This document shows positions 3,507 through 39,635 of a stretch of DNA of 64,000 nucleotides, one piece after another; positions within the stretch are counted from its first letter, which is position 1; each line of letters opens with the position of its first letter. Made by a program: the position numbers and the translations under genes. The stretch is from Devosia nitrariae (GTDB lineage Bacteria; Pseudomonadota; Alphaproteobacteria; Rhizobiales; Devosiaceae), in the NCBI RefSeq assembly GCF_030160115.1, contig NZ_BSNS01000012.1:124001-188000 (forward strand). Reading direction: 5' to 3'. Below the pieces are notes generated by a model, which saw only the letters and a list, made by a program, of their open reading frames with translations, was not told where the DNA came from and did not search any database.

Positions 3507-4364
3507 ATGGCACCGGTCTTGACGTCGAAGGAGCTGGTAGAGGGCGCGCGCCGGGAAATTGTCGCCCACGTCGCAGAGGAAAAGCAGGCGGGACGGGTAC
3601 CGTGCATGGCGGTGGTCGTGGCAACCGACGACAGTGCCGCATTGTCATACGCCCGCGTCAAGGACCGGATCGCCAAGGAGCTCGGCATCGAGGTTCGGAT
3701 CGAAGTTCTTGATGCATCGACGACCCAGGCGGCCCTCAATCAGCGGATGGAGGCATTGTCGAACGATCCCATGGTCCACGGCGTCCTGCTCGAGCTGCCG
3801 CTGAGGCGCGGTCTCGATGCAAACATTGCGATCAACTGCCTCGCCCCCCAGAAGGACATCGATGGGCTGAGCGATTTCAACGTCGCGCGGGTCGCCGTAG
3901 GAAATGAGGAGGTTGCGATCGCGCCCGCAACGCCGCAAGCCTGCATCGCACCTGCCGAAAGTGAAACCAAGGTTGCAGGAAAGCTCGTCACCGTCATCGG
4001 ACGCGGACGCACCGTGGGAAGGCCCCTCGCGCATATGCTGATCAACCGCGGAGCCACGGTCATCCACTGTCATTCCGGCACATCCGATTTGCCGTCGCTC
4101 ACCAGCCAGTGCGACATCCTGTTCACGGCCACCGGTCGAGCTGGCCTTGTTGGTGCCGCGCATGTGAGGGCGGGCCAGGTCGTAGTCGACGCCGGGACAG
4201 ACTACAGCTCCGGCAAAGTGCTCGGTGACGTGGACGCCGAGGCTGTGGGCCACGTGGTTAAGGCCTACACCCCTGTCCCGGGCGGTGTCGGCCCGCTGAC
4301 CACGGTGTTTCTCTTCAAGAACCTGTTGAAGGCGATTGCCCTTCAGACCGGGAGCGAGCAGTGA
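3507..4364 (+). CDS. folD: FolD-like methylene-THF dehydrogenase/cyclohydrolase
   Basis: 285 residues from ATG 3507, which has AAGG (3498-3501) upstream; longer frames reach back to 3447 without family similarity. The catalytic Y-x3-K is present in SYARVKDR, as are PQKDIDGLSDFN, the nucleotide loop VIGRGRTVGRPLAHML and PGGVGPLT. The usual PCTPxG loop reads PATPQACI, so its Cys is missing, and LPLPxH is LELPLRRG. The protein should interconvert methylene-, methenyl- and formyl-tetrahydrofolate, but it belongs to a divergent branch and is probably a second FolD. Its stop overlaps the next gene by 4 bases (GTGA). Confidence 0.85.
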   Translation: MAPVLTSKELVEGARREIVAHVAEEKQAGRVPCMAVVVATDDSAALSYARVKDRIAKELGIEVRIEVLDASTTQAALNQRMEALSNDPMVHGVLLELPLRRGLDANIAINCLAPQKDIDGLSDFNVARVAVGNEEVAIAPATPQACIAPAESETKVAGKLVTVIGRGRTVGRPLAHMLINRGATVIHCHSGTSDLPSLTSQCDILFTATGRAGLVGAAHVRAGQVVVDAGTDYSSGKVLGDVDAEAVGHVVKAYTPVPGGVGPLTTVFLFKNLLKAIALQTGSEQ

Positions 4365-11660: not shown

Positions 11661-14600
11661 CTAATAGTCCTTCTCGTAATAGACGCCGAGGCTGGTGTTC
11701 CCGTCGGCCCCGGCGGCGCCGGTGACCTTGATATCGTCGGTGACGTCGAGATTGATGGTGACCCGGCTCTGCGCGCCGGTGGCCTCGACCCCGAGATAGA
11801 CATTGTCCTGGAGATAGGTACCGGCGGCTACACCGACATTGCCCTCGTCGTCCGTGACGATGTCGAGGTCGGCAAGCCCCGCACCTTCGCGCAGGGACCC
11901 AAGCAGCCCTCCGCCGCCGCTGCCTCCGGCAAGTTCGGCCGCCGCGGCCGCCAGGCGCGCCACCTGCAGCGGCGTCAGTTCTCCGACCGAGCGGTTGAAG
12001 ATCAGCCGGGCCAGCACCTCGTCCTGCGGCAGCGCGGGGTTTGAGGTGAAGGTGACCTCGAGATCGGACACGCGTCCGGCAACAGTCACAAAGACAGTAA
12101 TGCCGTCCCCCTCTGAGCGGGCGACGAAGTTGAGCGCCGGATCGAGATCGCCGAGGAGCGTGACTGAACCGGTCTCGAAGGTGATGCGCTGGCCGAGGAT
12201 GGCAAGGCGGCCGCGGGTCATTTGGAAGCCGCCGACGGGCTGAATGTTGTTGATCGGGCCGGTGAGCCGCACCGAGCCGCCGACCTCGGCATCGAGCCCA
12301 CGCCCGCGGATGAAGATCTGGTTGGGTGCATTGACCGTGACGTCAAGCAGGATTCCCGGCGGGCGGGTGCGCGGGGTGGGCGCGCCACCCTCGGCTATGC
12401 GCGCCCGGGCCAGCGTGGCCTCGACCGGTCGGGGTGTGTGGACATGCTCCACATCGATGAGCACCGCCCCGCCGCCGAAGGACTCAGGAACAGTGATGTT
12501 GGCCTCTTCGATGAGGACGTTGCCCGCAATGAGTGGATTACCCAGAAGATTACCGGTGACGGCGAGGTTCCCCGACGCTGTCGCAACAAAAAGCTCACCG
12601 TCTGTATAGCGAGCCGAATTGAGCGACAGGGTAAGATTGGCAGGAAACTGGCCCGAGAGCCCGATCGTGCCCGAGCCCGAGATGCTGCCGCCGGTCGAGA
12701 GCCCGGCGGAAAGACTTTCAATCCGCGCCTGCGTCCCGGAAAGCGTGGCGCGCCCGTTGATGCCGACCAACCTCAGGTTGGCCTCGGGGTCAGTATAGCT
12801 GGCATCACTGACCGAGACGCTGCCGCTGAACTCTGGGCTGGAGAGACTCCCCGATACACGCGCATCGAGGTTGGCAACGCCCGTCGCCTGCCCGCCGCGA
12901 TCGGCAAGGTAGCGGTTGGCAAGCGAAAGCGGCGCCGAGCCGGTGAGCGTCAGGGCAAGGCCCCCACCCTCCAGCGGCACCGTGCCGGAGCCGGAAATCT
13001 GCAGTCCGCCGGCGCCACTCGCCCGCACGGCAGCGAGCGTGACGGTGTTGCCGGCAAAGCTGCCATTGACCGAGGCAGTGAGCGGAGCAATGCCGATATC
13101 GCGAATGGCGGCCGCGTCGAGTCCGGTGCCTTCGGCGGTAAAGCTTACGCGCGGGTCGCTGCCCGTGCCGGTGACCTGCGCCCGCCCGTCGAGCGTGCCC
13201 GCAAGGCCGAGGTCAGGCGCTACGGTGTTGGCGATCGACAGCGGCAGCGCGTTGACAGCAAGATCGATCGAAAGCGTTTCGCCGGCTGTACCCGAGGCAG
13301 TGATGCTACCCGAACCGACATTGAAGCGCACCGCGTCGAGCGACACGGACGAACCCTCGACAACGAGGACCGTCGGATTGGCAAGCCGCGCCGAAAGCTC
13401 GCCCTGCACCAGATTGGCGCGGTCGAGGGCGAGGCGATAGCCTGTGCCCTCCGGTGCGAGCGAGCCGGCAACGTCGACATCGGTGCCGGTCGCAAGGTTG
13501 GCCTGTGCATCAAAGCTCGTAGTCTCGCCGCTCTGGCTGGCGGTGGCGGTGAGCTGACTCACCTCGACTCCGGCAGCGGAGATGCCGCTGCCGGTCAGCC
13601 GCCCATTGACGGCCGGCACGCCGAAGAGATCGCTCGCGGTCGCGGTGATGTCGGCAGAGGCGACGCGGACGTTCTCGACGGCAAGATCCCGAACGGACCC
13701 GACGATCTCGGCGCTCTGTGTCTCCTCGACGATCGAGAGGGTGACGTCGGCATCGACGGCGCCGCTGGCCTCGACCAGCGCCAGCGCGGCGGCATTGGCG
13801 ATATCGGTGGCGTCGACCGACAGATTGCCTGACATCAGACCGTCGGGGCGTCGGGTGATATCGCCGGTGACGCGTGTCCCGGCGGTCTCGAACGCAATGT
13901 TGGAGAGCCGCGTGCCCTGGTTGTTGGCGGCAACGTCTGCTGCAAGGCCCACATTGTGGCCATCGAGCAGGGCGTCCCCGCTGACCCTTCCGGAAATCGC
14001 GGATTCGATCAGCGTCCCCTCAAAGCCAAACTGCGCCTGCCGCAACGGACGGCCGACAAGCTCGCCAGACGGCACCGTGGCATCGAGGTCGAGCGCGACG
14101 GTGCCTTCCTCGCCGCGCGCGGTGCCAGTGACAGTCAGCCGCCCGGACGCTTCCTCGGAAAGGAGCGCGAGATCGGCGAGATCAAGATCGAAGCCGAAAT
14201 CGGCAGTGCCGGTGGCGATGGTGCCGTCGGCGGTCAGAAGCAGCTTGTCATTGCCGAGCCGGAAGCCTTCCGCCTCGAGCCCCGCTTCGGTGCGCGCCAC
14301 GCGTCCGGAAAGGGCGACCTCGCCTTCGAGCAGCCGGTCGGCGATGTCGTCGCTGATGGCAAGGCCCGTGCCGGTGCCGTCGAGCGTGAGGTTGAAGCCG
14401 CCGGTCAGCGGGCTGATGGTGCCGCTCGCCGCCAGCGTCAGCCCACCAGAGAGATCGCGGCCCGCAAGATCCGAAAACGGCGCGATGCTGGCGGTCTCGA
14501 GGCCGATGTCGCCGTCAAAAACCATATCGTCGAGGGTGCCGCCGAGTGCCATGGTCAGCGCCTCGCCCGCCACACGCAACTCGGCGATCTGGATTGGCTC

Positions 14601-16016
14601 GCCTGCGGTCCACAGCCCGGCAATGCCGAGCCCGATGGAATCGCCAAGCGCCGCCTTGACTTCCTCGGAAGCCGCGATCCCCGAGAGCGTGCCGTCGCCA
14701 TTGAGCGTCACGCGCCGGCTGGTTGGATCGTCAAGGTTTGCCGCAACGCCCGAGAGGTTGAGCGCTGTCCTCTCGGCAGCGAACCCGCTGGTGGAGAGTT
14801 CCGAGACGACGACGTTTGCGCTCCACGCTTCGGAATCGTCGGCACCGTAGTCGACGGTTATGCGCGCTGACTCGACGGTGGTATCGCCACCCGGAACTGG
14901 CAGTGTCACCGACCCGCCTGAAGGGTTGTCGATGACTGCTTCGAGGTCCACACGGCGCAGGAAGTTGTCGGGCGTGGTTTCGAGATTGCCGGAAAGCGCC
15001 AGCTGTCCGCCCGTGATCTCCAGGTTGGAGATGGCAAAGCCACCCTCGCTGCGCACCAGAGCATCAGCGGTGAGCCGCGTTTCTTCGCCAAAGAACTGCC
15101 GGTAAGGCGCAGCCATCAGATCGGCAAGCGCCCCGGTGAGGTTCGCGCCGACGAGGAAACCTGCCTCCGTTTGGGTGATGGTCGCCGCACCCGCAAGCGC
15201 GGTCCGATCGTTGGCAGTGAAGGTCAGCTCCGTCGTCAGATCCGAAACCGGACCGCTGCCCGCCAGCGTCAGCTCCACCGCCGGGCGCCCCTCCAGGTTG
15301 AGGAGGTTGGCAAGAATGCCGTTCGGCGGCTCGGTAAGGGTCACACCAATATCGACGTTCTGGTCGGCGCCGGTATAGGCGACATCGAGATCGAGTGTGC
15401 CGCCAGGTCCGTCGAGGCGCTCGATGTCGAGCGTGGCGTCGAGATTGCCACCTTCGAGGGTGAAGGCACCGGTGAGCGAGATTTCTGATCCGAGGCCGAA
15501 GACGCCTTCCCCGAAGGTGACGCGCGGCACCGAGAGTTGCTCGATGAGGACCGCTACCGGAAACTCCGGCACCTCGAATCCGCCGGCCTCGGGTGACGGC
15601 AGGTCCGGCGATGCGTCCCGGCTCGGCACTGCGTTACGGATATATTCGATGGAATCGGCCGTCAGCGAGCGCACCTCCAGCCGACCGACGAACAGTGCCG
15701 CCTGGTTCCAGTTGAGACGCGCATTGTTGATGCGCAGCCACACGCCCTCAGCATCGGAAATGGTGATGAGCCGAACCGAAACGTCCGAGCCGAGAATCCC
15801 ATCGATGTTGGAAAGGCTGATTTGCCGTTCCGGGGTCGACAACCGATCCTGAACGAACTGGGTCAGCCAGTCCTTCTGCTCTTCGTTCGACAAGTCCTGG
15901 TAGGCCTCGCCGTCCTGGGCGAAGGCAACGACGAAAGGAACGGCAACGAACAGCGCCAGGCCCGCGAAGACGAGCGCGGCGAAGCGATACGGCAGCAATG
16001 TGCGGCGCTTGAGCAT
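11661..16016 (-). CDS. tamB: Translocation and assembly module protein TamB
   Basis: 1451 residues. An N-terminal signal anchor (YRFAALVFAGLALFVAVPFVVAFA) holds the protein in the inner membrane; the remainder is a very long, repetitive beta-rich periplasmic body (many repeats of the type GxxxLxGxxxxxxxxxLxLxxD) ending in the conserved TamB/DUF490 C-terminal domain (GSVRLTGPINNIQPVGGFQMTRGRLAILGQRITFETGSVT). It bridges the periplasm to TamA for outer-membrane protein and lipid handling. ATG overlaps the tamA stop (16016), so the pair is co-translated. Confidence 0.92.
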   Translation of the reverse strand: MLKRRTLLPYRFAALVFAGLALFVAVPFVVAFAQDGEAYQDLSNEEQKDWLTQFVQDRLSTPERQISLSNIDGILGSDVSVRLITISDAEGVWLRINNARLNWNQAALFVGRLEVRSLTADSIEYIRNAVPSRDASPDLPSPEAGGFEVPEFPVAVLIEQLSVPRVTFGEGVFGLGSEISLTGAFTLEGGNLDATLDIERLDGPGGTLDLDVAYTGADQNVDIGVTLTEPPNGILANLLNLEGRPAVELTLAGSGPVSDLTTELTFTANDRTALAGAATITQTEAGFLVGANLTGALADLMAAPYRQFFGEETRLTADALVRSEGGFAISNLEITGGQLALSGNLETTPDNFLRRVDLEAVIDNPSGGSVTLPVPGGDTTVESARITVDYGADDSEAWSANVVVSELSTSGFAAERTALNLSGVAANLDDPTSRRVTLNGDGTLSGIAASEEVKAALGDSIGLGIAGLWTAGEPIQIAELRVAGEALTMALGGTLDDMVFDGDIGLETASIAPFSDLAGRDLSGGLTLAASGTISPLTGGFNLTLDGTGTGLAISDDIADRLLEGEVALSGRVARTEAGLEAEGFRLGNDKLLLTADGTIATGTADFGFDLDLADLALLSEEASGRLTVTGTARGEEGTVALDLDATVPSGELVGRPLRQAQFGFEGTLIESAISGRVSGDALLDGHNVGLAADVAANNQGTRLSNIAFETAGTRVTGDITRRPDGLMSGNLSVDATDIANAAALALVEASGAVDADVTLSIVEETQSAEIVGSVRDLAVENVRVASADITATASDLFGVPAVNGRLTGSGISAAGVEVSQLTATASQSGETTSFDAQANLATGTDVDVAGSLAPEGTGYRLALDRANLVQGELSARLANPTVLVVEGSSVSLDAVRFNVGSGSITASGTAGETLSIDLAVNALPLSIANTVAPDLGLAGTLDGRAQVTGTGSDPRVSFTAEGTGLDAAAIRDIGIAPLTASVNGSFAGNTVTLAAVRASGAGGLQISGSGTVPLEGGGLALTLTGSAPLSLANRYLADRGGQATGVANLDARVSGSLSSPEFSGSVSVSDASYTDPEANLRLVGINGRATLSGTQARIESLSAGLSTGGSISGSGTIGLSGQFPANLTLSLNSARYTDGELFVATASGNLAVTGNLLGNPLIAGNVLIEEANITVPESFGGGAVLIDVEHVHTPRPVEATLARARIAEGGAPTPRTRPPGILLDVTVNAPNQIFIRGRGLDAEVGGSVRLTGPINNIQPVGGFQMTRGRLAILGQRITFETGSVTLLGDLDPALNFVARSEGDGITVFVTVAGRVSDLEVTFTSNPALPQDEVLARLIFNRSVGELTPLQVARLAAAAAELAGGSGGGGLLGSLREGAGLADLDIVTDDEGNVGVAAGTYLQDNVYLGVEATGAQSRVTINLDVTDDIKVTGAAGADGNTSLGVYYEKDY

Positions 16017-17920
16017 CAGAAAGCCTGTCCTATGCCCAGATAGATCGCATAGTCCGGGTCGCCGTCGCGCTTGTTGAGCGGGAAGGCGAGATCGGCCCTG
16101 AGCGGTCCGAGACCGGTGTCGTAGCGCACGCCTATGCCGGCACCAAGCCGCAGGTCCTCGAGGCCCGGGAAAGTATCGGCGGCAACATATCCGCCGTCAA
16201 CGAACCCGACGACGCCGATGTCACCCGTCACCCTGACCCGTGCCTCGAGCGAGCCTTCAAGAAGATAGCGGCCTCCGGTCACGGTATCGCCCGGTCCGTC
16301 AACGCCGATCGATTTGAAGGCATAGCCGCGCACCGACCCCCCACCACCGGCAAAGAACAGCCGGTCCGGCGGGATTTCGTCGAGGTCGGGGCCAATCAGC
16401 GCCCCCGCTCGCACGCGCGCGGCGAGCACGACATTGTCGGTCTCGCCAAAGCCGAAATAAGTGCGTCCCTCGATCACTGCGCGCGCCGCTGGATTGCCGT
16501 AATTGAACTCGTAGAACGGCTCGATCAGCGCCGAGGCATAGAAGCCTTCGGTGGCATCGAGCGGGTTGTCGCGATTGTCGAACGTGATGCCGCCATAGGC
16601 GCCGGCGATCATGAAGTCGCGCGTGCCGAAATCATCGTCAAACCGCGACACCTCGAAAAGCGCTCCACCTTCGGCCGTGATGTGATCGGAAAAGACGTGG
16701 GTCAAACCCACCCGGCCACCCGCCGAGGTTTCCGTATAAGAATCGAGCACCGTGCGCTCAGCCGAGACGGTCGTCACCAGATCGGTATCGGGCGTGAAGA
16801 TGCCCGGTTTGGTGAAGGTGCCGCCGAAGAAATAGTCGAACTCTTCGGTCTCGACCGGGAAACCGATACCGGCGACCCGTGCATCGAGCCGCAGCCGCTC
16901 GGCCTGACCAAAGAGGTTGCGCCAGAGGTGATAGGCCTCGACCCCGAGCCCGTCGACGGTCGAGAAATTCGCACCCACCCCGAACCGGCGCAGCGGCTGT
17001 TCCTGGACGATGAGCGTATAGGGCAGGAGCCCATTTGGGCTTATCGTCTCTGCCGCACTGAGTCGGGCGGCGCGGAAGACTTCCAGCCTGTCGAGGCGCT
17101 TCTGGGCGAGCACCAGATCATCGGGGTCGTATTCCTGTCCCTCGACGAGCCCGGTTTGGCGGGCAACGAACGCCGGGTCCATGTGCTCGGTGCCCTGGAC
17201 CTGGATCGAACCAAAGCGGGCCGGCCGGCCAGGTGCGACGGTGATGGTGACGTCGACAGTATTGGTGGCGTGGTCGGCAACCACTTCCCGACTAACGATC
17301 TCGGCCTTGGCATAACCCTGCTGACGCCACGCTTCGAGCGCGACCCCCTCGGCACGGATCACCACTCCCGAACGCGCGACCTGCCCCGTTGCATAGCCGA
17401 GCGTTACAGGAGGATCGACATGGTCGGCCGGATCGTCCGTCGGCGGCGCCTGGTTGACGATGGCGAGGCGGTTGAAGCGGAACTCGGGGCCCGGGTTGAC
17501 GATAACCTGGACGGCAATCGGATCGGGCAGGTTGACGTCGGGCGCAAGGCTCGCCGCTTCCACACCGCCGACGAGGATGTTGACCGTACCGCCATAATAG
17601 CCTTCGCCATAGAGCGCGGCGGTGATGCGGCGGTAGTCGCCGCGTGCCTTGGCCAGAAGCCCGGCGGCACCCGAAGCGGGCTCCTCCTGATCGGCAACGA
17701 GCATGGAGGCGTTGCGGATGGCGCTGTCGAGATCGCCGGTCGCATTGGTGACGATCTCGGCGCTGTAGGGCTGCGGATCGACGATCACCGCCTCGGCATC
17801 GCGGTCGGCGTCGTCTTCGAAGAAGCGGATGCCGAAGAGTTCGAATGCAGCCGCGCGCGGCGTCAGGAGGACGCTTGTTGCGGGCAACGCGATACTCAGG
17901 ATGCCCAGGCAATAGATCAC
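16016..17920 (-). CDS. tamA: Outer-membrane autotransporter assembly factor TamA (Omp85 family)
   Basis: 634 residues from a GTG at 17920; no in-frame ATG is found upstream, although the open frame continues through RQLTLAR, so the true start could be slightly earlier. After a signal region ending LLTPRAAAFEL come POTRA domains (RPARFGSIQVQGTEHMDPAFVARQTGLVEGQEYDPDDLVLAQKRLDRLEVF) and a C-terminal 16-strand Omp85 barrel, with the lid-lock motif GGGGSVRGY and a terminal Phe. Works with TamB. The 341 bp upstream is shared with a divergent SDR gene. Confidence 0.92.
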   Translation of the reverse strand: MIYCLGILSIALPATSVLLTPRAAAFELFGIRFFEDDADRDAEAVIVDPQPYSAEIVTNATGDLDSAIRNASMLVADQEEPASGAAGLLAKARGDYRRITAALYGEGYYGGTVNILVGGVEAASLAPDVNLPDPIAVQVIVNPGPEFRFNRLAIVNQAPPTDDPADHVDPPVTLGYATGQVARSGVVIRAEGVALEAWRQQGYAKAEIVSREVVADHATNTVDVTITVAPGRPARFGSIQVQGTEHMDPAFVARQTGLVEGQEYDPDDLVLAQKRLDRLEVFRAARLSAAETISPNGLLPYTLIVQEQPLRRFGVGANFSTVDGLGVEAYHLWRNLFGQAERLRLDARVAGIGFPVETEEFDYFFGGTFTKPGIFTPDTDLVTTVSAERTVLDSYTETSAGGRVGLTHVFSDHITAEGGALFEVSRFDDDFGTRDFMIAGAYGGITFDNRDNPLDATEGFYASALIEPFYEFNYGNPAARAVIEGRTYFGFGETDNVVLAARVRAGALIGPDLDEIPPDRLFFAGGGGSVRGYAFKSIGVDGPGDTVTGGRYLLEGSLEARVRVTGDIGVVGFVDGGYVAADTFPGLEDLRLGAGIGVRYDTGLGPLRADLAFPLNKRDGDPDYAIYLGIGQAF

Positions 17921-18261
17921 GCGCGCGAGAGTCAGCTGTCTCGTCCCATCGTGTACTGACCGCGCCAGGAACGCGGCGCGGTATCTGGCGCAGAAAGGCC
18001 AGAAAATTCCGTTAACTCTTGCGGCACAGCGGCGCCGACACCTCGCGCCGCAGTCCCCATCCCTTTCGAGGACATGAGCTTACGGCGGATGGAGAGCTTT
18101 GAATACCGCAAGTGCACAAAATTGCTGCTTCCGGTCGCCGGCAGTGGCAACGCGGCCACAGGTGGGGCTGAGGATCCCGCAAAAATCCAACACGCCGCCA
18201 ATGCCTTGCGCGGCCGAACGTGCTATTGCGAACGCCCTTACGCATATCGTTGGAGCCAGCC
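17921..18261. other. Divergent intergenic region between tamA and an SDR gene
   Basis: 341 bp without a supportable gene. It must contain the promoters of tamA (leftward) and of the SDR gene (rightward). I see no clear palindrome, riboswitch or repeat here. The Shine-Dalgarno GGAG of the SDR gene sits at its right end. Confidence 0.5.
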
Positions 18262-19035
18262 ATGTATCAGACGCTCGATCCCCGCAATTTCACCGTCTTC
18301 ATCACCGGAGCGACCTCGGGGTTCGGCGCGGCGGCGGCCCGGCGTTATGCCGAGGCCGGATCGCGGATCATTGCCGTCGGGAGGCGGCAGGAACGGCTGG
18401 AAGCTCTCGAGAAAGAACTGGGCGAGCGCTGCCATACAGTTGAGCTCGACGTACGCGACCGGGCCGCGCTCGAGACCGCTGTCGCCGCGATCCCCGCCCC
18501 CTTCGATGCCATCAATGTGGTGCTCGCCAATGCCGGGCTCGCCCTCGGTTTGCAGCCGGCCGCCGAGACCGACATCACCGACTGGGAGACGATGGTGGAA
18601 ACCAACGTCAAGGGCGTGATGTATACCGTGCGTGCTCTGCTGCCCGGCCTCATCGCCCGCGGCGGCGGCCACATCGTGACCATGGGGTCCGTTGCCGGCG
18701 ACTATTCCTATCCGGGCGCCAGCGTCTATGGCGCGAGCAAGGCGTTCGTAAAGCAGTTTGCCCTCAACCTGCGCTCAGATGTTCAGGGCAAGAAGGTGCG
18801 GGTCACCAATATCGAGCCAGGGCTGGCCGAGACCGAGTTCTCGGTGGTGCGATACAAGGGCGACGCCGAGCGCGCCGCCAAGCACTACGAGCGCACCCAA
18901 TCGATGACCGCAGAGGACATTGCGGAGGCCGTGTTCTGGGCGACGACGATGCCGGCGCATGTCAACATCAACCGCATCCAGATGATGGCAACGACCCAAG
19001 CCTTCGCGCCATTCGACATCTATCGGGAAGATTGA
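18262..19035 (+). CDS. SDR family oxidoreductase, YdfG-like 3-hydroxy acid dehydrogenase
   Basis: 257 residues from ATG 18262 (GGAG upstream; the longer frame from 18220 adds nothing family-like). Rossmann motif TGATSGFGAAAARRYA, NAG at VLANAGLAL, catalytic Ser in VTMGSVAGDYSYPG and Y-x3-K in YGASKAF. The ending (HVNINRIQMMATTQAFAPFDIYRED) matches the YdfG group, NADP-dependent dehydrogenases of serine, 3-hydroxyisobutyrate and related 3-hydroxy acids. Single gene. Confidence 0.85.
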   Translation: MYQTLDPRNFTVFITGATSGFGAAAARRYAEAGSRIIAVGRRQERLEALEKELGERCHTVELDVRDRAALETAVAAIPAPFDAINVVLANAGLALGLQPAAETDITDWETMVETNVKGVMYTVRALLPGLIARGGGHIVTMGSVAGDYSYPGASVYGASKAFVKQFALNLRSDVQGKKVRVTNIEPGLAETEFSVVRYKGDAERAAKHYERTQSMTAEDIAEAVFWATTMPAHVNINRIQMMATTQAFAPFDIYRED

Positions 19036-21081: not shown

Positions 21082-22515
21082 CTACCCTGCCCTCGCCGAA
21101 CGAATAGCCCTCGGCGTCCACTCAAATCCATCATCGAACGGGAAGGTCGGACGTACCTTGTGCTGCCGCGCGAGTCGCTCGACGAACTGATCGACGACGC
21201 CGGGCGAGAGCGCCATGAGGCTGGGATTGGCGATCGGGCCAAGTTCGGGCGAAAGATAGCCGGATTTGACCACGACGATGCGCGCGGTTCTCGGATCAAG
21301 GCCGAGCCGGGTGAAGTCGGCGATGTTGTGGAACGGCCGCCGCCGGGCCGCGAGCACAAGGTCGATGCCGCCGATCGAGACCACCGCCTCGCGCAGCAAA
21401 CCATCCTCGACCGGCAGCAGGTTTTTGACCATGGCCGCGGTCCGCACCGGCGTGCTCGACGTATCGAGGGTCGCCCCAATGCTGAGTTCAACCGTCGCTC
21501 CGATGCCGGCGGCATAGGCCGCGTCTGTAGCCGGTCGGTCGGTGATGCCGGCAAAGACAACGTCCTCTGCATTGCGCGCGATCAGCGCCGCCAGCACCTC
21601 GGCGCGGTCCCCGACCCCACCGCCGGTTGGATTGTCCCCGGATTCGGCCAGTACCACCGGCCCGGTCGCCGAGGCGACGGCCGCATCCACGCACTCCTCG
21701 ATGCTGCCGGTCGTCGTGCCGAAAACGAAATTGCGCCGGATATTCCAGTAGTCATTGGCGAGGCTCTCGGCGATCCTCTCCTGCAACTCCGGATCAGTAC
21801 CGGTAACGAGCGCAGCGGCGGTCGCGCGCGGTTCGTCCGCCCAGACATAGCCGACTTGGAACGAAGCGTCCCAGATACCCACCGGCTCCTCGATTTCGCT
21901 GAAGCGCGCATAAAAGCTGCGGCCCGGCTCGTCCTGCGTGCTGGTGCGTTCCCCTGGCAGCAGCACCGGCACCGGCACCCAGACCAGCGAGGGCCTGACC
22001 CCCGTGCGCAGGGCCCTCACCAGCATGTCGACCGCGCGCCTCATGGTGTCGGGCACGTCGATATGGGGGGCAGTGCGGTAGGTCGAAAACATATCGAGGC
22101 TGTCGACGATGCGCTGGCTGGCATTGCCGTGCAGGTCATAGCTCGCCGAAATGAGGACATCAGGCCCCACCACCGAGCGCACCGCTGAGATGAAATCGCC
22201 CTCGGCATCGAACATGCCCTCGACAAACATGGCCCCATGCATGGCAAGATACACGCCATCGACCGGCAGCGCCGCCTTCAGCCCCGCCAGGATCTCCGCC
22301 TTCCAGGCCTCATAGATGCCGCGTTCCACCGGCCCGCCGGCAATGGCGCGCGCGTGAAGGATGGTGACGAACTCCGCCGGAAAATGCGTCAGGAACTCGA
22401 AATACCCATCCTTGGCCATTGCCGCACCCCGCAGCACGCGGAACTCCGGCTCACGGATGAGCACAGGATTATAGGTGCTGCACTCGGTATGCAGGCCGGC
22501 AACAGCGATGCGCAT
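21082..22515 (-). CDS. M81 family metallopeptidase (MlrC-like)
   Basis: 477 residues, full length for the family. N-terminal MlrC domain starts MRIAVAGLHTECSTYNP; metal-binding positions are expected at the MHGAM and SYDLHGN motifs. The C-terminal MlrC_C domain carries ESGDNPTGGGVGD. MlrC was described in microcystin degradation, but most homologues sit in catabolic or ABC transport loci with unknown substrates. Divergent from the ROK regulator, with 189 bp carrying a likely operator pair. Confidence 0.88.
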   Translation of the reverse strand: MRIAVAGLHTECSTYNPVLIREPEFRVLRGAAMAKDGYFEFLTHFPAEFVTILHARAIAGGPVERGIYEAWKAEILAGLKAALPVDGVYLAMHGAMFVEGMFDAEGDFISAVRSVVGPDVLISASYDLHGNASQRIVDSLDMFSTYRTAPHIDVPDTMRRAVDMLVRALRTGVRPSLVWVPVPVLLPGERTSTQDEPGRSFYARFSEIEEPVGIWDASFQVGYVWADEPRATAAALVTGTDPELQERIAESLANDYWNIRRNFVFGTTTGSIEECVDAAVASATGPVVLAESGDNPTGGGVGDRAEVLAALIARNAEDVVFAGITDRPATDAAYAAGIGATVELSIGATLDTSSTPVRTAAMVKNLLPVEDGLLREAVVSIGGIDLVLAARRRPFHNIADFTRLGLDPRTARIVVVKSGYLSPELGPIANPSLMALSPGVVDQFVERLARQHKVRPTFPFDDGFEWTPRAIRSARAG

Positions 22516-33659: not shown

Positions 33660-34271
33660 CTATCTACCCGAAAAGGCGAGCCTCAGGCCAAGCAGTGCAA
33701 AGGCACCGGCAAAGCCGCGCCGCAGCCAGGCCATGATCTGCGGCCGGCCGATGACATGCCGTCGCGCCGCCGCAGCGAAGGCGCCGTAGACAATGAAGAC
33801 GGCGAACGTCAGCACCATGAAAATGGCACCGAGGGCCAGCATTTGAAACGTCGCCCCGTCGGCATCCATGGCGACGAATTGCGGCAGGAACGCAAGGAAG
33901 AACAGCGAAAGCTTGGGGTTGAGGACGTTGATGAGCAGGCCCTCAATGACGATGCGCAGCCCAGAACGTTCGCCCCGGCTTTCGCTGATTGTCAGCGCTC
34001 CGCCATTTCGCAACACCCCCCAGGCCATCCAGAAGAGATAGGCAACGCCCAGGTACCGCACGAACTCGAAGGCGAGCGCGCTGGCATGGAGAAGCGCCGC
34101 AAGCCCGGCAACGCTCGCCACGATATGCGGGAGGATACCGAGCGTGCAGCCAAATGCCGCGAGAACACTCGCCCGCAGGCCGCGCGAAAGGCCGAAGGCA
34201 AGGGTATAGAGCACGCCCGTGCCTGGCAGCAGAATGACGATGAGGCTGGTCAGCAGATATTCGACGGTCAT
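33660..34271 (-). CDS. LysE family amino-acid exporter
   Basis: 203 residues from ATG 34271. Six predicted membrane segments; the N-terminus MTVEYLLTSLIVILLPGTGVLYTLAFGLSRG carries the conserved PGP-like turn as PGTG, and NPKLSLFFLAFLPQF is the family motif. Exports amino acids or homoserine-lactone-like compounds. Same strand as the cob operon, but probably unrelated in function. Confidence 0.88.
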   Translation of the reverse strand: MTVEYLLTSLIVILLPGTGVLYTLAFGLSRGLRASVLAAFGCTLGILPHIVASVAGLAALLHASALAFEFVRYLGVAYLFWMAWGVLRNGGALTISESRGERSGLRIVIEGLLINVLNPKLSLFFLAFLPQFVAMDADGATFQMLALGAIFMVLTFAVFIVYGAFAAAARRHVIGRPQIMAWLRRGFAGAFALLGLRLAFSGR

Positions 34272-34419
34272 GACGGGTTCTCCAGTGGACACCCCATTCA
34301 ATCGCCGACTAGATGACCGCGTCTTGAACGCAATTGCGGGAACGGCACGCAACGTCCCGGAGGCACGTCTCCCGTTGATGAAGAACGCGCCGCCCTCCAA
34401 GCCCAACCCCAGCAAAGCA

Positions 34420-35409
34420 ATGAACGAAACAACACAGTTCTTGGAACTCCCTGTGCACGCGTTCGGATCGGTCGCGCCGCTCTTTGCCGACCAGACCATG
34501 CACTTGAGCGTAGCGGCGGTTCTGGCCGGATCTGCCGAGGGCGCCGTTTACGTGGACGACATCGCGGCGCCGCGCCTCGCCGTGCTGGAGGGACCCGAGG
34601 GTTACTATATCGGTCGGGACACCTCGTCGGCCGCTGCGCGCGGCGGAATCGACGAGATCATTCCACCCTGGGCCTATGTCTACGCGCCACCGCAGGAGGA
34701 ACATGGCATCCCGTCGACCGCCCAGATCTACCCTTGCATGCTGCGCCATCCGCGCGTCTGTCTGACGCTCGATCTGTCGCGCTGGGAGGCGCCGCCGACA
34801 CCTCACGGCAATGATTATCTGGTCGAGGTGACATCCGAAGGTGTCAGTATTCTCAAGGAAACTGGGATCGTTGCCTGGTGCCGACGCGACGTCATACTGC
34901 ATGAGCGTGCCGAGATCGGTGTTGGAACATCGGCCGCCTTTCGCCGACTTGGGCTCGCGAAACACGCCGCTGCGGTTTACCTCCAATTCCTTCAAGGCGA
35001 GGGAATCCGCAGCGTAGGCTGGCACTGCCATCTCTCCAACCGGGGCTCCCGCCGCCTTGCCGAAAGCCTCGGCTTCATTCCGTTGCGCCAGTATTATGCG
35101 TTCAGCGCCAGCCTGCCGGCGGAAAATCCCGGTGATCTCGAAACGTCCGAGCTGGAAGCCTTCGGCCACCACTTCGCCGAAGCTGCCACAAACGTGAACT
35201 GGCTGGATTTCCATGCCGCTGCCGCCTACGCCCAGGCCGGCCGGACCGACCTTGCCCTTACCTGTCTGGAGCGGCTCGTCACGGGAAACTGGCAGGGCCA
35301 GGCCTCTTGGCTGGTCGCACATTGGGCGCTGGCGCCACTTGCAGGCGAGCCGCGATTTCAGGCCTGCGTCACCGAGCAGGCCCAGAGGCGCAAAGTACCG
35401 GCCGTATAG
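34420..35409 (+). CDS. GNAT family N-acetyltransferase
   Basis: 329 residues from ATG 34420, chosen because upstream codons overlap the divergent lysE promoter. The acetyl-CoA site region reads IGVGTSAAFRRLGLAKHAAAVYLQFLQGEGIRSVGWHCHLSNRGSRRLAESLGFIP. An N-terminal domain of about 150 residues precedes it, and a TPR-like helical tail follows (AAAAYAQAGRTDLALTCLERLVTGNWQG). Substrate unknown. Convergent with the AraC gene. Confidence 0.75.
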   Translation: MNETTQFLELPVHAFGSVAPLFADQTMHLSVAAVLAGSAEGAVYVDDIAAPRLAVLEGPEGYYIGRDTSSAAARGGIDEIIPPWAYVYAPPQEEHGIPSTAQIYPCMLRHPRVCLTLDLSRWEAPPTPHGNDYLVEVTSEGVSILKETGIVAWCRRDVILHERAEIGVGTSAAFRRLGLAKHAAAVYLQFLQGEGIRSVGWHCHLSNRGSRRLAESLGFIPLRQYYAFSASLPAENPGDLETSELEAFGHHFAEAATNVNWLDFHAAAAYAQAGRTDLALTCLERLVTGNWQGQASWLVAHWALAPLAGEPRFQACVTEQAQRRKVPAV

Positions 35410-35418
35410 ACGGGGTTA

Positions 35419-36210
35419 CTAAACGCGGGCGGCTGCGTAGGCTCCCGGCGTCAACCCGTATCTGCGCACGAATGCTCGCGTCATATGGCTCTGGTCGGCA
35501 AAGCCGGCGGTCGACGCCGCCTCGGCGAGCGGCATGCGCCGGGCGATCAGGCGGCGGACGAGATCGATGCGGCGCTGCACCTGGTAGGCGTGCGGGGTGA
35601 GCCCCGTCTCCCGAGCGAAGGCGCGTAGGAGCTGGAAGCGGGTAACACCGGCAGTTCGCGCGAGCTCGGCGAGCGACACCGCAGCGGCCGGATCGTCATC
35701 GATGCGGCCGCGGGCAGCGGCGATGCTTGCCAGAGAGCGGGTGCCGAGCCCCTGCCCCGTCTGCCGGCGCAGGATGTCGCCAACGAGCGCCAGCAACGCG
35801 GCCTCGCTCCCCGGATCGGCGATGGTGGATAGGAGCCGCGCAACCCGCGCAACCACACGCGGATCGGCGAGGACGGGATCATGGAACTCGAAGGCACGGG
35901 CGGCCGGATCGATATCGGCGACCGCCCCGGCGATTACCTCCGGATCGACATAGAGCATGCGCCAGGCACGGCCGGCGTCGCCGATCGGGGCGCCGTCATG
36001 CACTTCGCCCGGATTGACGGTAATGACGTCGCCTGCCCCGGCCTCGACGGTGCCCCGACCGCTCAGGGATCTCTGCGCCCCGCGCTCGACAACTCCGATA
36101 CCGAAGGCCTCGTGCGTGTGGCGGGCAAACACCTGGGCGGAATCGGCTGCGACAACTTGGATGCCGGCAAGGGCACTTGAGAGAACTCGAAACTGCCCGC
36201 GGGCAGTCAC
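35419..36210 (-). CDS. AraC family transcriptional regulator
   Basis: 263 residues from the GTG at 36210 that overlaps the GST stop. N-terminal cupin sensor (FARHTHEAFGIGVVERG, VITVNPGEVHDG) and a C-terminal double HTH (VSLAELARTAGVTRFQLLRAFARETGLTPHAYQVQRRIDLVRRLI ... AGFADQSHMTRAFVRRYGLTPGAYA). Last gene of the Rieske/GST operon, so it likely regulates that operon in response to its substrate. Confidence 0.88.
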   Translation of the reverse strand: MTARGQFRVLSSALAGIQVVAADSAQVFARHTHEAFGIGVVERGAQRSLSGRGTVEAGAGDVITVNPGEVHDGAPIGDAGRAWRMLYVDPEVIAGAVADIDPAARAFEFHDPVLADPRVVARVARLLSTIADPGSEAALLALVGDILRRQTGQGLGTRSLASIAAARGRIDDDPAAAVSLAELARTAGVTRFQLLRAFARETGLTPHAYQVQRRIDLVRRLIARRMPLAEAASTAGFADQSHMTRAFVRRYGLTPGAYAAARV

Positions 36211-36857
36211 GATGCCTCCCGCGCGCGGCTCGCCGGAAAGACGCCGGACATGGCGGTGAAGCCTTCGATGCGGCGGACGCGGTCGAGCCAGCGGCGGATG
36301 GCCGGATAATCCTGGCGGGAAATGCCGCCTTCCTCGGAAAGCGCCGTATAGGGAAAGCAGGCGATGTCCGCGGTCGTCGGATGATCGGCCTTGCACAGCC
36401 ATTCCCGACCCTCTCTTTCCGCGAACCACAAATGTTCGTCCATGGTGCGGAACAGTTGGTGCGCTCCCGACTGGGCTTTCTCCAGGTCGAAGTCATAGTT
36501 CATGGTGATCGTGAGCCGTGCCGCCGAGGCGGTGCCGGTGATGCGATTGGCAAAATCGTGCCAGATCTCGATCTCGGCCGTGAGCGCCGGATCATCGACC
36601 GGAAACCACTTGCCGGTCGTATCGTACTTGCGCGCCAGGTAAACGAGGATCGCCTGGCTGTCGCGCAGCACCAGGCCGTCGTCGACCAGCACCGGAAGTT
36701 CGCCGAACGGATTGAGCTTGAGGAACCAGTCCGACTTGTGTTCGCGGCCGGGATAGAAATCGACCGGCACGATGTCGTACCGGACCCCCAGGATGCTCAT
36801 CATCAGTCGGAGTTTGTAGCAGTTGCCCGAGAGCTCGAAGTCGTAGAGCGTGATCAT
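36207..36857 (-). CDS. Glutathione S-transferase-like protein (NdmE-like)
   Basis: 216 residues from ATG 36857, overlapping the stop of the Rieske reductase by ATGA. Thioredoxin-like N-domain (MITLYDFELSGNCYKLRLMMSILG, NPFGELPVLVDDG with cis-Pro, LRDSQAILVYLARKY) and a helical C-domain. In the caffeine degrader Pseudomonas putida CBB5 a GST homologue, NdmE, stabilises the NdmC-NdmD complex rather than acting as a transferase; the position and coupling here suggest the same role. An ordinary detoxifying GST remains possible. Confidence 0.75.
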   Translation of the reverse strand: MITLYDFELSGNCYKLRLMMSILGVRYDIVPVDFYPGREHKSDWFLKLNPFGELPVLVDDGLVLRDSQAILVYLARKYDTTGKWFPVDDPALTAEIEIWHDFANRITGTASAARLTITMNYDFDLEKAQSGAHQLFRTMDEHLWFAEREGREWLCKADHPTTADIACFPYTALSEEGGISRQDYPAIRRWLDRVRRIEGFTAMSGVFPASRAREAS

Positions 36858-38575
36858 ATGTCGAGCACCAGCCGGTCGGATTTGGCGCGCGACACGCAGG
36901 TCATCATGCAGCTGTTGGAGCGCCGCTCGGTGTCGTTGAGGTAGACGTCCTGGTGGTCGGGGATGCCCTCGAGGACCGTGGTCAGGCACGTGCCGCACGC
37001 GCCCTGTTCGCAGGACGACGGCGCATCCACCCCATTCTCGCGCATGACCTCGAGGATCGACTTGCCCGAGGGAATGGCCAGCGTCAGCGCCGAGCGGGCG
37101 AGCTCGACGGTGAAGGTCGAGGAGAGATCGATCTCGTTGACATTCTTGAAATACTCGAAATGCACCGCCTCTTCCGGCCAGCCGGCTTCGGCGGTGCGGC
37201 GCCGTACGAGATCGAGCATGGGGCCGGGTCCGCAGACGTAGAGGTGCCGTGCAAAGCCATAGCCCGAGACGAGCTGCTCGATTTCGGCTGCGGTACCGGC
37301 CGGATCGAGCCCGATATGCGGGACAACGCTCTCCCCCAGCTTGTCGAGCGCCTCCGGGAAAGCGACGTGCTCGGGTGACCGGGCGAAGACGTGGAGCTCG
37401 AACGGCAGCCGCGAGGAGGCAAGGGTCTTGGCCATGGCCAGCAGCGGCGTGATGCCGATACCGCCGGCGATGAGGATCGTTCTCGTCGCGTCGCGCCGCA
37501 GCGGGAAGTTGTTGCGCGGTTCCGAAATGGCAACGACATCGCCCTCGCGCAGCTCGTCGGCGATGGCGACCGACCCGCCGCGCGAGTCCGGCTCACGCTT
37601 GACGCCGACGGTGTAGCTCAGAAGTTCGCCCGGACCATTGGTGATCGAATATTGCCGGATAAGCCCGTTAGGCAGGAAGAGGTCGAGATGCGCGCCCGGC
37701 TGGAAGGTCGGTAGGTGCCCCTCGAGCGCGGCGAGTTCCAGCCCCGTCACATCCGCCCCCGCCTGCCACTTGCGCGCCACGCGAACCCTGAGCTTCGCTT
37801 GCCGGCCAAAACGCAGATCCGGCATGGTGGCGAGCTCGAGCGAGACCGGCTCGTAGACAGGGACCAGCGGCTCGGGCGCCTCTTCCAGCGCCATCTCGGC
37901 CTCAACCTGCCGGCGCAGGGTCGAAAGGCGCTCGTTGAAGAGGCGCAGGAGTGAAAGCTGGTCATCCCAGGATTCCGCTTCCACGACGCCGCGGATGACG
38001 GCCCGCCCGGAATCGACCGGCTGCACGAAGAACACGGCAGCCCGACCGTCGACGCCGGTGAGAACGAGCCGCGCACCGAGTGGCGGCAGGCTCTCGACGT
38101 CGCTTTCCGCCTCGCGCGCCGCCGTCAATGCGGCGAGAACCGCGCCGGGGCGGGCGTTGACCGGGAGCGGGCGCAGCGGCATCCAGTTACCTTCGGGCAG
38201 CGGCGGCGCGAAGGGCGTGACATCGCCCATGGCCGACCAGACGAGGCCGAGGCTCTCGACCGCCGGGAAGGTGCGGTTGGTGATGCGCCGGGCCGGGGCA
38301 TCGGCCGGATGGGCCGGAATATAGGTGCAGCCCGCCGAACGGTTGGCATAGCGCCAGCCGTGGTACTGGCACTTCAGTTCCGCACCTTCGTTGAGGCCGA
38401 TGGAAAGTCTGACCCCCCGGTGGAGGCAGCGGTTCTCCCAGACATTGACGTTGCCGTCATCGGCCCGCCACACGGCGAATTCCTGGCCGAGCAGTTGGCC
38501 GTGATAGACGTGGCGGAAAGGCAGGTCTTCGCTCGAGGCGATCGGGTGCCAGGCGGGATGGCGGATGTCGGTCAT
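36854..38575 (-). CDS. Rieske-FMN/NAD reductase-ferredoxin fusion (NdmD-like)
   Basis: 573 residues from ATG 38575 (a GTG at 38587 is possible). Three modules: N-terminal Rieske domain with cluster ligands C50, H52, C69, H72; a phthalate-dioxygenase-reductase-type FMN/NAD unit (RQYSITNGP, ILIAGGIGITPLLAMA, LYVCGPGPML); and a C-terminal plant-type 2Fe-2S ferredoxin (CEQGACGTC ... SCMMTC). Normal class IA reductases lack the Rieske domain; this order is that of NdmD from methylxanthine N-demethylase. It should carry electrons from NADH to the Rieske-less catalytic subunit encoded upstream. Confidence 0.85.
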   Translation of the reverse strand: MTDIRHPAWHPIASSEDLPFRHVYHGQLLGQEFAVWRADDGNVNVWENRCLHRGVRLSIGLNEGAELKCQYHGWRYANRSAGCTYIPAHPADAPARRITNRTFPAVESLGLVWSAMGDVTPFAPPLPEGNWMPLRPLPVNARPGAVLAALTAAREAESDVESLPPLGARLVLTGVDGRAAVFFVQPVDSGRAVIRGVVEAESWDDQLSLLRLFNERLSTLRRQVEAEMALEEAPEPLVPVYEPVSLELATMPDLRFGRQAKLRVRVARKWQAGADVTGLELAALEGHLPTFQPGAHLDLFLPNGLIRQYSITNGPGELLSYTVGVKREPDSRGGSVAIADELREGDVVAISEPRNNFPLRRDATRTILIAGGIGITPLLAMAKTLASSRLPFELHVFARSPEHVAFPEALDKLGESVVPHIGLDPAGTAAEIEQLVSGYGFARHLYVCGPGPMLDLVRRRTAEAGWPEEAVHFEYFKNVNEIDLSSTFTVELARSALTLAIPSGKSILEVMRENGVDAPSSCEQGACGTCLTTVLEGIPDHQDVYLNDTERRSNSCMMTCVSRAKSDRLVLDI

Positions 38576-38626
38576 GGTCTGGGTCACGGGGCAGGTGCCT
38601 CGAAAGGTGCGAAGCGGGCGGGATCA

Positions 38627-38741
38627 CCCCCCTCCCGGCCTCCCCCACAAGGGGGGAGGTGCTGGTCCCGTGGCTTTGACGGGATCGGGTCAAAAGCACA
38701 ATGCGGCACCTCCCCCCTTGTGGGGGAGGCTGGAAGGGGGG
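38627..38741. repeat. Large inverted repeat, family B, inside the Ndm-like operon
   Basis: 34-bp arms at 38627-38660 and 38708-38741 with two mismatches and a 47-base loop. The inner motif CTCCCCCACAAGGGGGGAGG recalls the arms of the 11341-11612 element. It lies in the 199 bp between the catalytic and reductase genes, so a transcript would form a strong hairpin there. Confidence 0.85.
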
Positions 38742-38774
38742 TTCTACCGTGAGTGCTCAAGTTCAAAGCCGTCC

Positions 38775-39635
38775 TCACGCCGCCTGCGGGATGACGCCGT
38801 AGTTCACGCCCTTCTGGCTCAGCCACCGGCGGTAGGCGATGGCTGACTTGTCGGCGCGGATCGGGGTTTCGGCGCGCGGATCCAGCGGCAGCCTCTTCGG
38901 GTACTGGTTCTCGAGGATGGGCTTGTCCTGCCCGAAGATGGTCTGTTGGAAGCGGCGCATCGCCGTGATGGTGTTCTCGTCGTCGATCATCGACTGCAGG
39001 AGATGGGCGCGGATCGTCTCTTCGGTCATCGGCTGGCAGAAGATACCGATCACATCGAGCCGGCTCTCGTCGGCCGGGCACGACTTGTAGAGCACCGAGC
39101 AATAGGGGTGCGGCACGCGGTAGATATACTCGACATCCTGTCCCTCGTCGGCCGAAAGGGCCGCGCGCGGCTGATAGAAGCGACAGCGGGTGGCCAGGAT
39201 CTCGTCGCGCTCATAGGAGATCTCGACATCGTATTCCTTGACTTCCGTGTGCGGCTCTTCGCCGAGGATCCCCGTATGGACATAGGGGAAGTGCCCCATG
39301 TCGAGGAAGTTCTCGACGGCGCGCGGGGCCGAGACGTTCACGCCCAGTGAGCCGCAGCTCATGTTCTTGCGGTCGGGTTCGTAGAACTCCGGGATGGAAA
39401 ACAGATCGTCGGGCGGACTGCCGAGGCTCGTCCAGGCAAAACCGTAGCGCTCGATGACCAGAAGAGCCGCGCCGGTATCGCGCCGGCGCACCTCGACCTC
39501 GCCATTGGTCCCGCGCCGATAGTCGAGGCGCGTGTCGAGCAGCAGCGTCGAGCGGTAGGGACCGGGGCCGATCTCGGCGGCAGCCGAAAAGACGTGCCAG
39601 GCATCGAGAATGGCGGCGCTGGGCGCGATGGGCAT
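38775..39635 (-). CDS. Rieske oxygenase catalytic subunit lacking the Rieske cluster (NdmC-like)
   Basis: 286 residues. The mononuclear-iron site is intact: D112, H115 and H120 in ENFLDMGHFPYVHTG, with acidic residues D218-E220 as third ligand. The N-terminus keeps the edges of a Rieske fold (DAWHVFSAAAEIGPGPYRSTLLLDTRLDYRRG ... ERYGFAWTSLG), but the CxH and CxxH loops are missing. NdmC, the 7-methylxanthine N7-demethylase subunit, has this same deletion and borrows the Rieske cluster of NdmD. Substrate here is unknown; an N- or O-demethylation is the likely chemistry. Confidence 0.82.
   Translation of the reverse strand: MPIAPSAAILDAWHVFSAAAEIGPGPYRSTLLLDTRLDYRRGTNGEVEVRRRDTGAALLVIERYGFAWTSLGSPPDDLFSIPEFYEPDRKNMSCGSLGVNVSAPRAVENFLDMGHFPYVHTGILGEEPHTEVKEYDVEISYERDEILATRCRFYQPRAALSADEGQDVEYIYRVPHPYCSVLYKSCPADESRLDVIGIFCQPMTEETIRAHLLQSMIDDENTITAMRRFQQTIFGQDKPILENQYPKRLPLDPRAETPIRADKSAIAYRRWLSQKGVNYGVIPQAA

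Follow-up and report, generated by a model that had tools for sequence, protein, structure and literature searches.

A putative NdmCDE-type N-demethylase operon in Devosia nitrariae and its relatives

We analysed a 64,000-nucleotide stretch of the Devosia nitrariae genome (contig NZ_BSNS01000012.1, positions 124,001 to 188,000), hereafter the window, and found three adjacent genes on its minus strand whose products are laid out like NdmC, NdmD and NdmE of Pseudomonas putida. Homology and domain content support well the placement of this triple in the NdmCDE family. We think it probable, though far from assured, that the triple is an NdmCDE-type N-demethylase and that it most likely acts on an N-methylated purine base, with an N7-methyl group favoured. 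The split-Rieske design has so far been studied in one enzyme. Most Devosia genomes have it, and in other bacteria it is linked to guanine deaminase, to formaldehyde disposal and to a transporter of the BMP type, which makes a test of the substrate feasible. Our results also raise the possibility that the caffeine enzyme branched off from a broader metabolism of N-methylpurines. The features that carry the argument are as follows.

38775..39635, minus strand: NdmC-like catalytic subunit, 286 amino acids (open reading frame list, Pfam, alignment, predicted model)
39276..39302, minus strand: D112, H115 and H120 of the mononuclear iron site, conserved in 116 of 116 proteins
38925..38927, minus strand: D237, probable third iron ligand, conserved in 116 of 116 proteins and aligned with an Asp of SxtT and NdmA
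36854..38575, minus strand: NdmD-like fused reductase, 573 amino acids, with Rieske domain, linker, FMN/NAD reductase and plant-type ferredoxin
38306..38551, minus strand: Rieske domain of the NdmD-like reductase, residues 9-90 (Pfam), ligands C50/H52/C69/H72 in 86 of 86 proteins
36207..36857, minus strand: NdmE-like protein of the glutathione S-transferase (GST) family, 216 amino acids (domains, identity, 4-base overlap)

Make-up and conservation of the triple

Conservation was judged from 86 NdmD loci. Fifty-five are non-Devosia loci: 50 from a survey of named loci, which took the best 80 of the 161 relatives found, and five plasmid records (L005-L009), with the P. putida reference among them as well as close duplicates of S. 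meliloti and S. medicae loci. The other 31 are Devosia-type loci, a grouping of our own made up of the loci of named Devosia, those of four relatives that are uncultured or named to family level, and a 28-kb segment of the window. Genes were picked by a codon-based method, and a few loci with lost genes were completed from length-based picking. An NdmC-like gene was called in 84 of the 86 loci (not in L104 or L117) and an NdmE-like gene in 83 (not in L039, L054 or L110). Thus, the triple is not a chance arrangement.

The three open reading frames of an original prediction, made from the letters of the DNA, were confirmed; it had left their strand unstated. Together with an AraC-family gene they form a run of four co-directional minus-strand genes from 39635 to 35419, in the order NdmC-like, NdmD-like, NdmE-like GST and AraC. 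The start of the NdmE-like gene and the stop of the NdmD-like gene share four bases (ATGA), so the GST-like gene is coupled to the reductase as had been predicted.

The NdmC-like protein matches Pfam VanA_C and KshA_C and has no Pfam Rieske match at 0.001. The CxH...CxxH motif is absent from all 116 aligned NdmC-like proteins (84 loci, window included), which bears out the earlier claim that the catalytic protein has lost the loops that hold the Rieske cluster. The same 116 proteins all keep D112, H115, H120 and D237. We take D112 to be the bridging aspartate of this enzyme class and H115 and H120 to be iron ligands. The predicted retention of the first three residues is correct; D237, which the prediction did not name, is from its alignment probably the third ligand. 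That a protein with no cluster keeps the bridging aspartate agrees with electrons arriving from a Rieske domain in trans. The AlphaFold model of the protein (pLDDT 87.4, pTM 0.88) has confident strands in residues 14-69, and on this model the N-terminal part resembles a Rieske-like scaffold that has degenerated.

The reductase has gained an N-terminal Rieske domain in front of its FMN/NAD and ferredoxin modules, as predicted. Residues 261-573 align to phthalate dioxygenase reductase (6.4e-67) and end in a C-terminal Fer2 domain. The Rieske ligands C50, H52, C69 and H72 and the ferredoxin cysteines 522, 527, 530 and 560 are invariant in all 86 NdmD-like proteins. Two genomes (G052 and G065) seemed to carry NdmD copies that lack the Rieske domain; both genes run off contig ends, and these candidates were rejected. 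The third protein retains its GST domains.

Both halves of the divided oxygenase point to the same relatives. SxtT is the best-scoring solved oxygenase for the NdmC half (5.4e-27) and also comes first for the NdmD Rieske half (2.8e-21), followed closely there by a phthalate 4,5-dioxygenase (2e-20). In Foldseek searches with the NdmC model, GxtA and SxtT aligned over about 330 columns including gaps with TMq up to 0.85, and NdmA was next at 0.71. Thus, SxtT and GxtA (SxtDIOX) are the closest solved sequences for both halves and the closest fold for NdmC, but they differ from the window triple in having both domains on one chain. That SxtT tops both searches is expected if one oxygenase was split. 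We infer that the reductase obtained its Rieske domain, by transfer or by copying, from one SxtT-like oxygenase, and that a remnant without the loops stayed behind in NdmC. SxtT and GxtA are described as hydroxylating enzymes, not as demethylases (PMC8752792).

The original prediction compared the triple with NdmCDE of P. putida CBB5. Our reference was the ndm cluster on a plasmid of P. putida MT178 (L009) rather than the CBB5 NdmC, NdmD and NdmE sequences themselves; NdmA and NdmB of CBB5 are the best matches of its two full-length oxygenases, and the reductase of the cluster matches the ferredoxin chain of NdmD. When these proteins were compared with those of the window, identity was 46.0% over 274 residues for NdmC, 40.1% over 551 for NdmD and 60.2% over 216 for NdmE. 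Within NdmD, identity is 57.4% in the Rieske segment (115 residues) and 41.2% in the reductase part. NdmE and the Rieske segment of NdmD, which should dock, are thus among the best conserved parts by sequence. The two systems share a Rieske-less NdmC, a Rieske domain on NdmD, a GST-like NdmE, the gene order C-D-E, the ligands, and two residues of NdmC, Q230 and F234. The predicted layout therefore holds in domains, ligands and homology over full-length subunits. Unlike the P. putida cluster, the window operon has its own AraC regulator and is without ndmA, ndmB, the nucleobase symporter, frmA and fghA. In the window, NdmA and NdmB of P. putida (tblastn, 1e-5) matched no genes other than the NdmC-like and NdmD-like ones, in agreement with the prediction. 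NdmA and NdmB have a similar catalytic part and iron motif, and NdmD is their electron donor in P. putida; they differ in carrying a complete Rieske domain within the oxygenase, and the structural match is at 16-20% identity.

Rhizopine demethylation of the MocD/MocE/MocF type uses a separate Rieske-type ferredoxin. We considered such a system and rejected it, as the reductase scores 20 bits on the NCBIfam MocE model (TIGR02377), which has a cut-off of 136.15.

The NdmCDE layout outside caffeine-degrading pseudomonads is present here, as predicted, but it is not new. Homologues in 18 further organisms, mainly Sinorhizobium and Mesorhizobium, are already in print, with their function given as unknown (PMC4408171). 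In the open-licence literature we found no tested function for the Devosia and rhizobial branch of NdmCDE. Compared with the window, S. meliloti R28 and M. ciceri WSM1271 have a reductase-adjacent NdmC that is 66-67% identical, an NdmD that is 62-64% identical and an NdmE that is 69-71% identical. Many Sinorhizobium and Mesorhizobium loci differ in having a second, upstream NdmC, a BMP ABC transporter, a GntR regulator and often FrmA and FghA.

Proposed reaction and substrate

Based on these results, we propose a model in which the electron chain lies entirely on the NdmD-like protein, so that electrons would pass from NADH to FMN, to the plant-type [2Fe-2S] cluster and to the Rieske [2Fe-2S] cluster. 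They would then cross the subunit interface via Asp112 of the NdmC-like protein to the iron held by H115, H120 and probably D237; in Rieske oxygenases the distance for this step is about 12 Å (PMC12445004). The iron would hydroxylate the N-methyl group, and the methyl would depart as formaldehyde. The GST-like protein may keep NdmC and the Rieske domain of NdmD together, a role in which glutathione activity would be unnecessary. The substrate may be 7-methylxanthine or 7-methylguanine, in which case the product would feed the guanine deaminase and xanthine dehydrogenase of the cell.

One pointer to the substrate comes from the two NdmC paralogues. Both were called in 32 of 84 loci, as tandem Rieske-less pairs beside one NdmD and one NdmE (L008 6840-8672, L068 8160-9955 and 30 other loci). 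Structures of the NdmA ‘QL’ variant change an N to Q and an F to L at positions that we take to be N282 and F286, which agrees with chain position minus 18. In an ungapped alignment these positions match Q230 and F234 of the window protein. A glutamine occupies position 230 in all 78 members of the clade that includes the window protein and in P. putida NdmC, and the upstream paralogue has a methionine there in 36 of 37 proteins; F234 is conserved in nearly all NdmC-like proteins. This residue pattern favours specificity for N7.

A second pointer comes from neighbouring genes. In 36 of the 55 non-Devosia loci the triple has three or more parts of a BMP-type ABC transporter nearby, and in 50 it has one or more. 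FrmA is found in 21 of these loci, FghA in 11, guanine deaminase (guaD) in four, adenine deaminase in one, and some one-carbon gene in 26. If the plasmid records are left out, the counts for the 50 survey loci are 33 for at least three BMP transporter parts, 19 for FrmA, 10 for FghA and three for guaD. FrmA starts 2.5-3.6 kb past the NdmD start, just downstream of the triple, in 20 of its 21 loci, the remaining one being the P. putida cluster; guaD stands straight after the triple in three of its four loci and after FrmA in L048. Representatives of FrmA, FghA and guaD exceed their NCBIfam cut-offs. XdhC-like small subunits near five loci were not used, being ambiguous with other molybdenum enzymes. 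The predicted formaldehyde product thus finds indirect support in the FrmA and FghA neighbours of relatives, but in nothing within the window operon itself.

The genome of D. nitrariae has guaD and xdhB, for the two purine enzymes of the model. The original prediction noted no xanthine genes in the window, and tblastn queries with guaD, xdhB-type and xdhC-type proteins (1e-5) gave no match there. The statement is true locally but not of the genome, as xdhB and guaD flank a BMP transporter elsewhere on this contig (C12:36982-47533), at a distance of about 112-121 kb from the triple. The transporter parts are 38-55% identical to those of the relatives, which ties the transporter type of the relatives to purine genes. 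The genome also has frmA. In addition, the copies of Mesorhizobium sediminum (L085) and Aquamicrobium (L087) fall inside the Devosia clade yet adjoin a BMP transporter, and so bridge the Devosia-type and the other kind of setting. Beyond the transporter in M. sediminum (L085:2300-4092) are a FolD-like gene and a GbdR-like AraC gene, with counterparts in an Aquamicrobium metagenome-assembled genome.

Several observations weigh against a purine substrate or against the model as a whole. No purine, BMP-transporter or formaldehyde gene was found beside the triple in the 31 Devosia-type loci, window included; the purine case is brought over from relatives. Even among the 55 other loci, guaD is nearby in just four, three of them Mesorhizobium, and BMP transporters are not purine-specific; their best named NCBIfam models are B6-transporter models, all below cut-off. 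Co-occurrence across genomes was dropped as evidence, because nearly all genomes of the genus carry these genes with or without the triple (guaD in 72 of 75, xdhB in 71 and frmA in 69), which makes it uninformative. In the nearest relative, D. geojensis (G021), FrmA gave no match at 1e-120. The NdmC of P. putida is remote from the window clade and shows no clear affinity to it: at 22 diagnostic columns it is like the window clade in seven, like the upstream paralogue in six and like neither in nine, and a quick tree places it near the upstream paralogue at the end of a long branch (our trees were all quick ones, built without bootstrap). Finally, the NdmC model is weakest at residues 111-130 (block means 57 and 53), the region of H115 and H120.

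The most serious alternative keeps the same split complex and electron route but gives the Devosia version a changed substrate, a non-purine N- or O-methyl compound; the original prediction had suggested a different N- or O-methyl substrate. The surroundings of the Devosia-type loci agree with this, as 18 of the 31 have an Ldh_2-family dehydrogenase gene in place of purine or transporter genes, and so do the separate AraC regulator of the window operon, its position next to kduD and kduI, and an NdmC just 46% identical to that of P. putida. Yet Q230 and F234 are shared with P. putida NdmC and with the reductase-adjacent rhizobial copies, and L085 and L087 adjoin the BMP transporter from within the Devosia clade. 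The Ldh_2 gene itself argues neither way: ureidoglycolate dehydrogenase belongs to this family, but a representative scored 195.8 bits on the model for that enzyme, which has a cut-off of 496.2. As the neighbours in relatives point to purine, we regard a changed substrate as possible but doubtful.

Two other explanations concern the partner proteins. The GST-like protein could, instead of being a structural subunit, work as a genuine glutathione enzyme on the released formaldehyde or on a reactive product. Its GST domains are kept, and at least 95% of 83 NdmE-like proteins share S10, N12, C13, Y14 and K15; however, NdmE of P. putida is described as non-catalytic, structural and needed for N7-demethylation (PMC4408171, PMC13237722). 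NdmE-like is also the most conserved subunit against P. putida (60%), as fits an interface protein, although this argument is weak because such conservation would fit a catalytic role too. We consider a glutathione enzyme improbable. We give still less credence to the idea that the reductase serves another, intact Rieske oxygenase and that the short catalytic protein is a dead remnant. The genome does hold other Rieske-like matches (C11:554323-557048, near a reductase-like match, and C11:152464), and NdmD of P. putida also serves NdmA and NdmB (PMC4408171). Against this, the iron-site residues are intact in 116 of 116 proteins, nearly every NdmD locus has its NdmC-like gene, and the first C11 match has its own reductase-like match close downstream.

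Returning to the NdmCDE-type purine demethylase, we offer a broader idea that is speculative and, on balance, unlikely. The Devosia and rhizobial branch may serve general salvage of N7-methylguanine released in the turnover of tRNA, rRNA or mRNA caps, or from alkylated DNA; the guanine so formed would pass to guanine deaminase and xanthine dehydrogenase as a source of nitrogen. The Pseudomonas caffeine enzyme would then be a specialised descendant of an older family devoted to purine salvage, and the upstream NdmC of rhizobia would demethylate a second ring position.

The reductase across Devosia and the setting of the operon

New here is that most genomes of the genus Devosia carry the reductase. 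With the NdmD protein as query at 1e-80, 60 of 136 genomes of the family matched, 57 of which are among the 75 of the genus, own genome included; five of the 57 are partial, broken or in pieces (G013, G052, G061, G065 and G078). In a sample of the order 22 of 397 genomes matched, 12 of them of the same genus, and in a sample of the phylum 6 of 398. Within the genus, then, the reductase is no oddity. The nearest named match among the loci surveyed is D. geojensis, with an NdmD that is 90% identical.

The original prediction had proposed a survey of the triple and its surroundings in other genomes; it finds the triple common in the genus, with surroundings that differ between Devosia-type and other loci. 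Most of the 31 Devosia-type loci have housekeeping genes around the triple, such as a radical-SAM gene (EpmB by context, 25 loci), a tRNA-synthetase-like gene (EpmA by context, 23), elongation factor P (21) and an Omp85 (TamA-like) gene (19). Flanks were short in D. geojensis (113 bases after NdmD) and in Devosia sp. RYN_506 (845 before NdmD). In the window, TamB, an Omp85 gene and a short-chain dehydrogenase/reductase gene at 11661-19035 mark this usual Devosia site, and the triple lies about 17 kb further on.

Two further features belong to the operon.

35419..36210, minus strand: AraC-family regulator, likely GTG start (domain match, 4-base overlap)
38619..38749, between the ndmC-like and ndmD-like genes: inverted repeat with two 44-nucleotide arms, 89% complementary

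The likely GTG start of the AraC gene overlaps the GST stop by four bases (GTGA), which together with the domain match upholds the predicted regulator as part of the operon. This gene had no second match at 1e-15 across the 86 loci, among which the D. geojensis contig stops soon after NdmD. The inverted repeat lies in the 199-base gap between the NdmC-like and NdmD-like genes and contains two perfect copies of a 22-base palindromic core, where shuffles expect 0.00. A related core pattern was found in 12 of 122 loci searched, including D. geojensis.

Upstream of the NdmC-like gene, after a 297-base gap, are kduD and kduI (TIGR01832 and NF002091, above cut-offs). Past the AraC gene, on the plus strand at 34219-35409, is a GNAT acetyltransferase with a weak, sub-cut-off C-terminal match like the end of a TPR. 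An M81/MlrC family gene at 21082-22515 has a counterpart upstream of the triple in three Aminobacter loci (L092:1-2262), probably by coincidence. A FolD-like stretch at 3615-4358, about 31 kb from the operon, is 34% identical to the FolD-like protein of L085.

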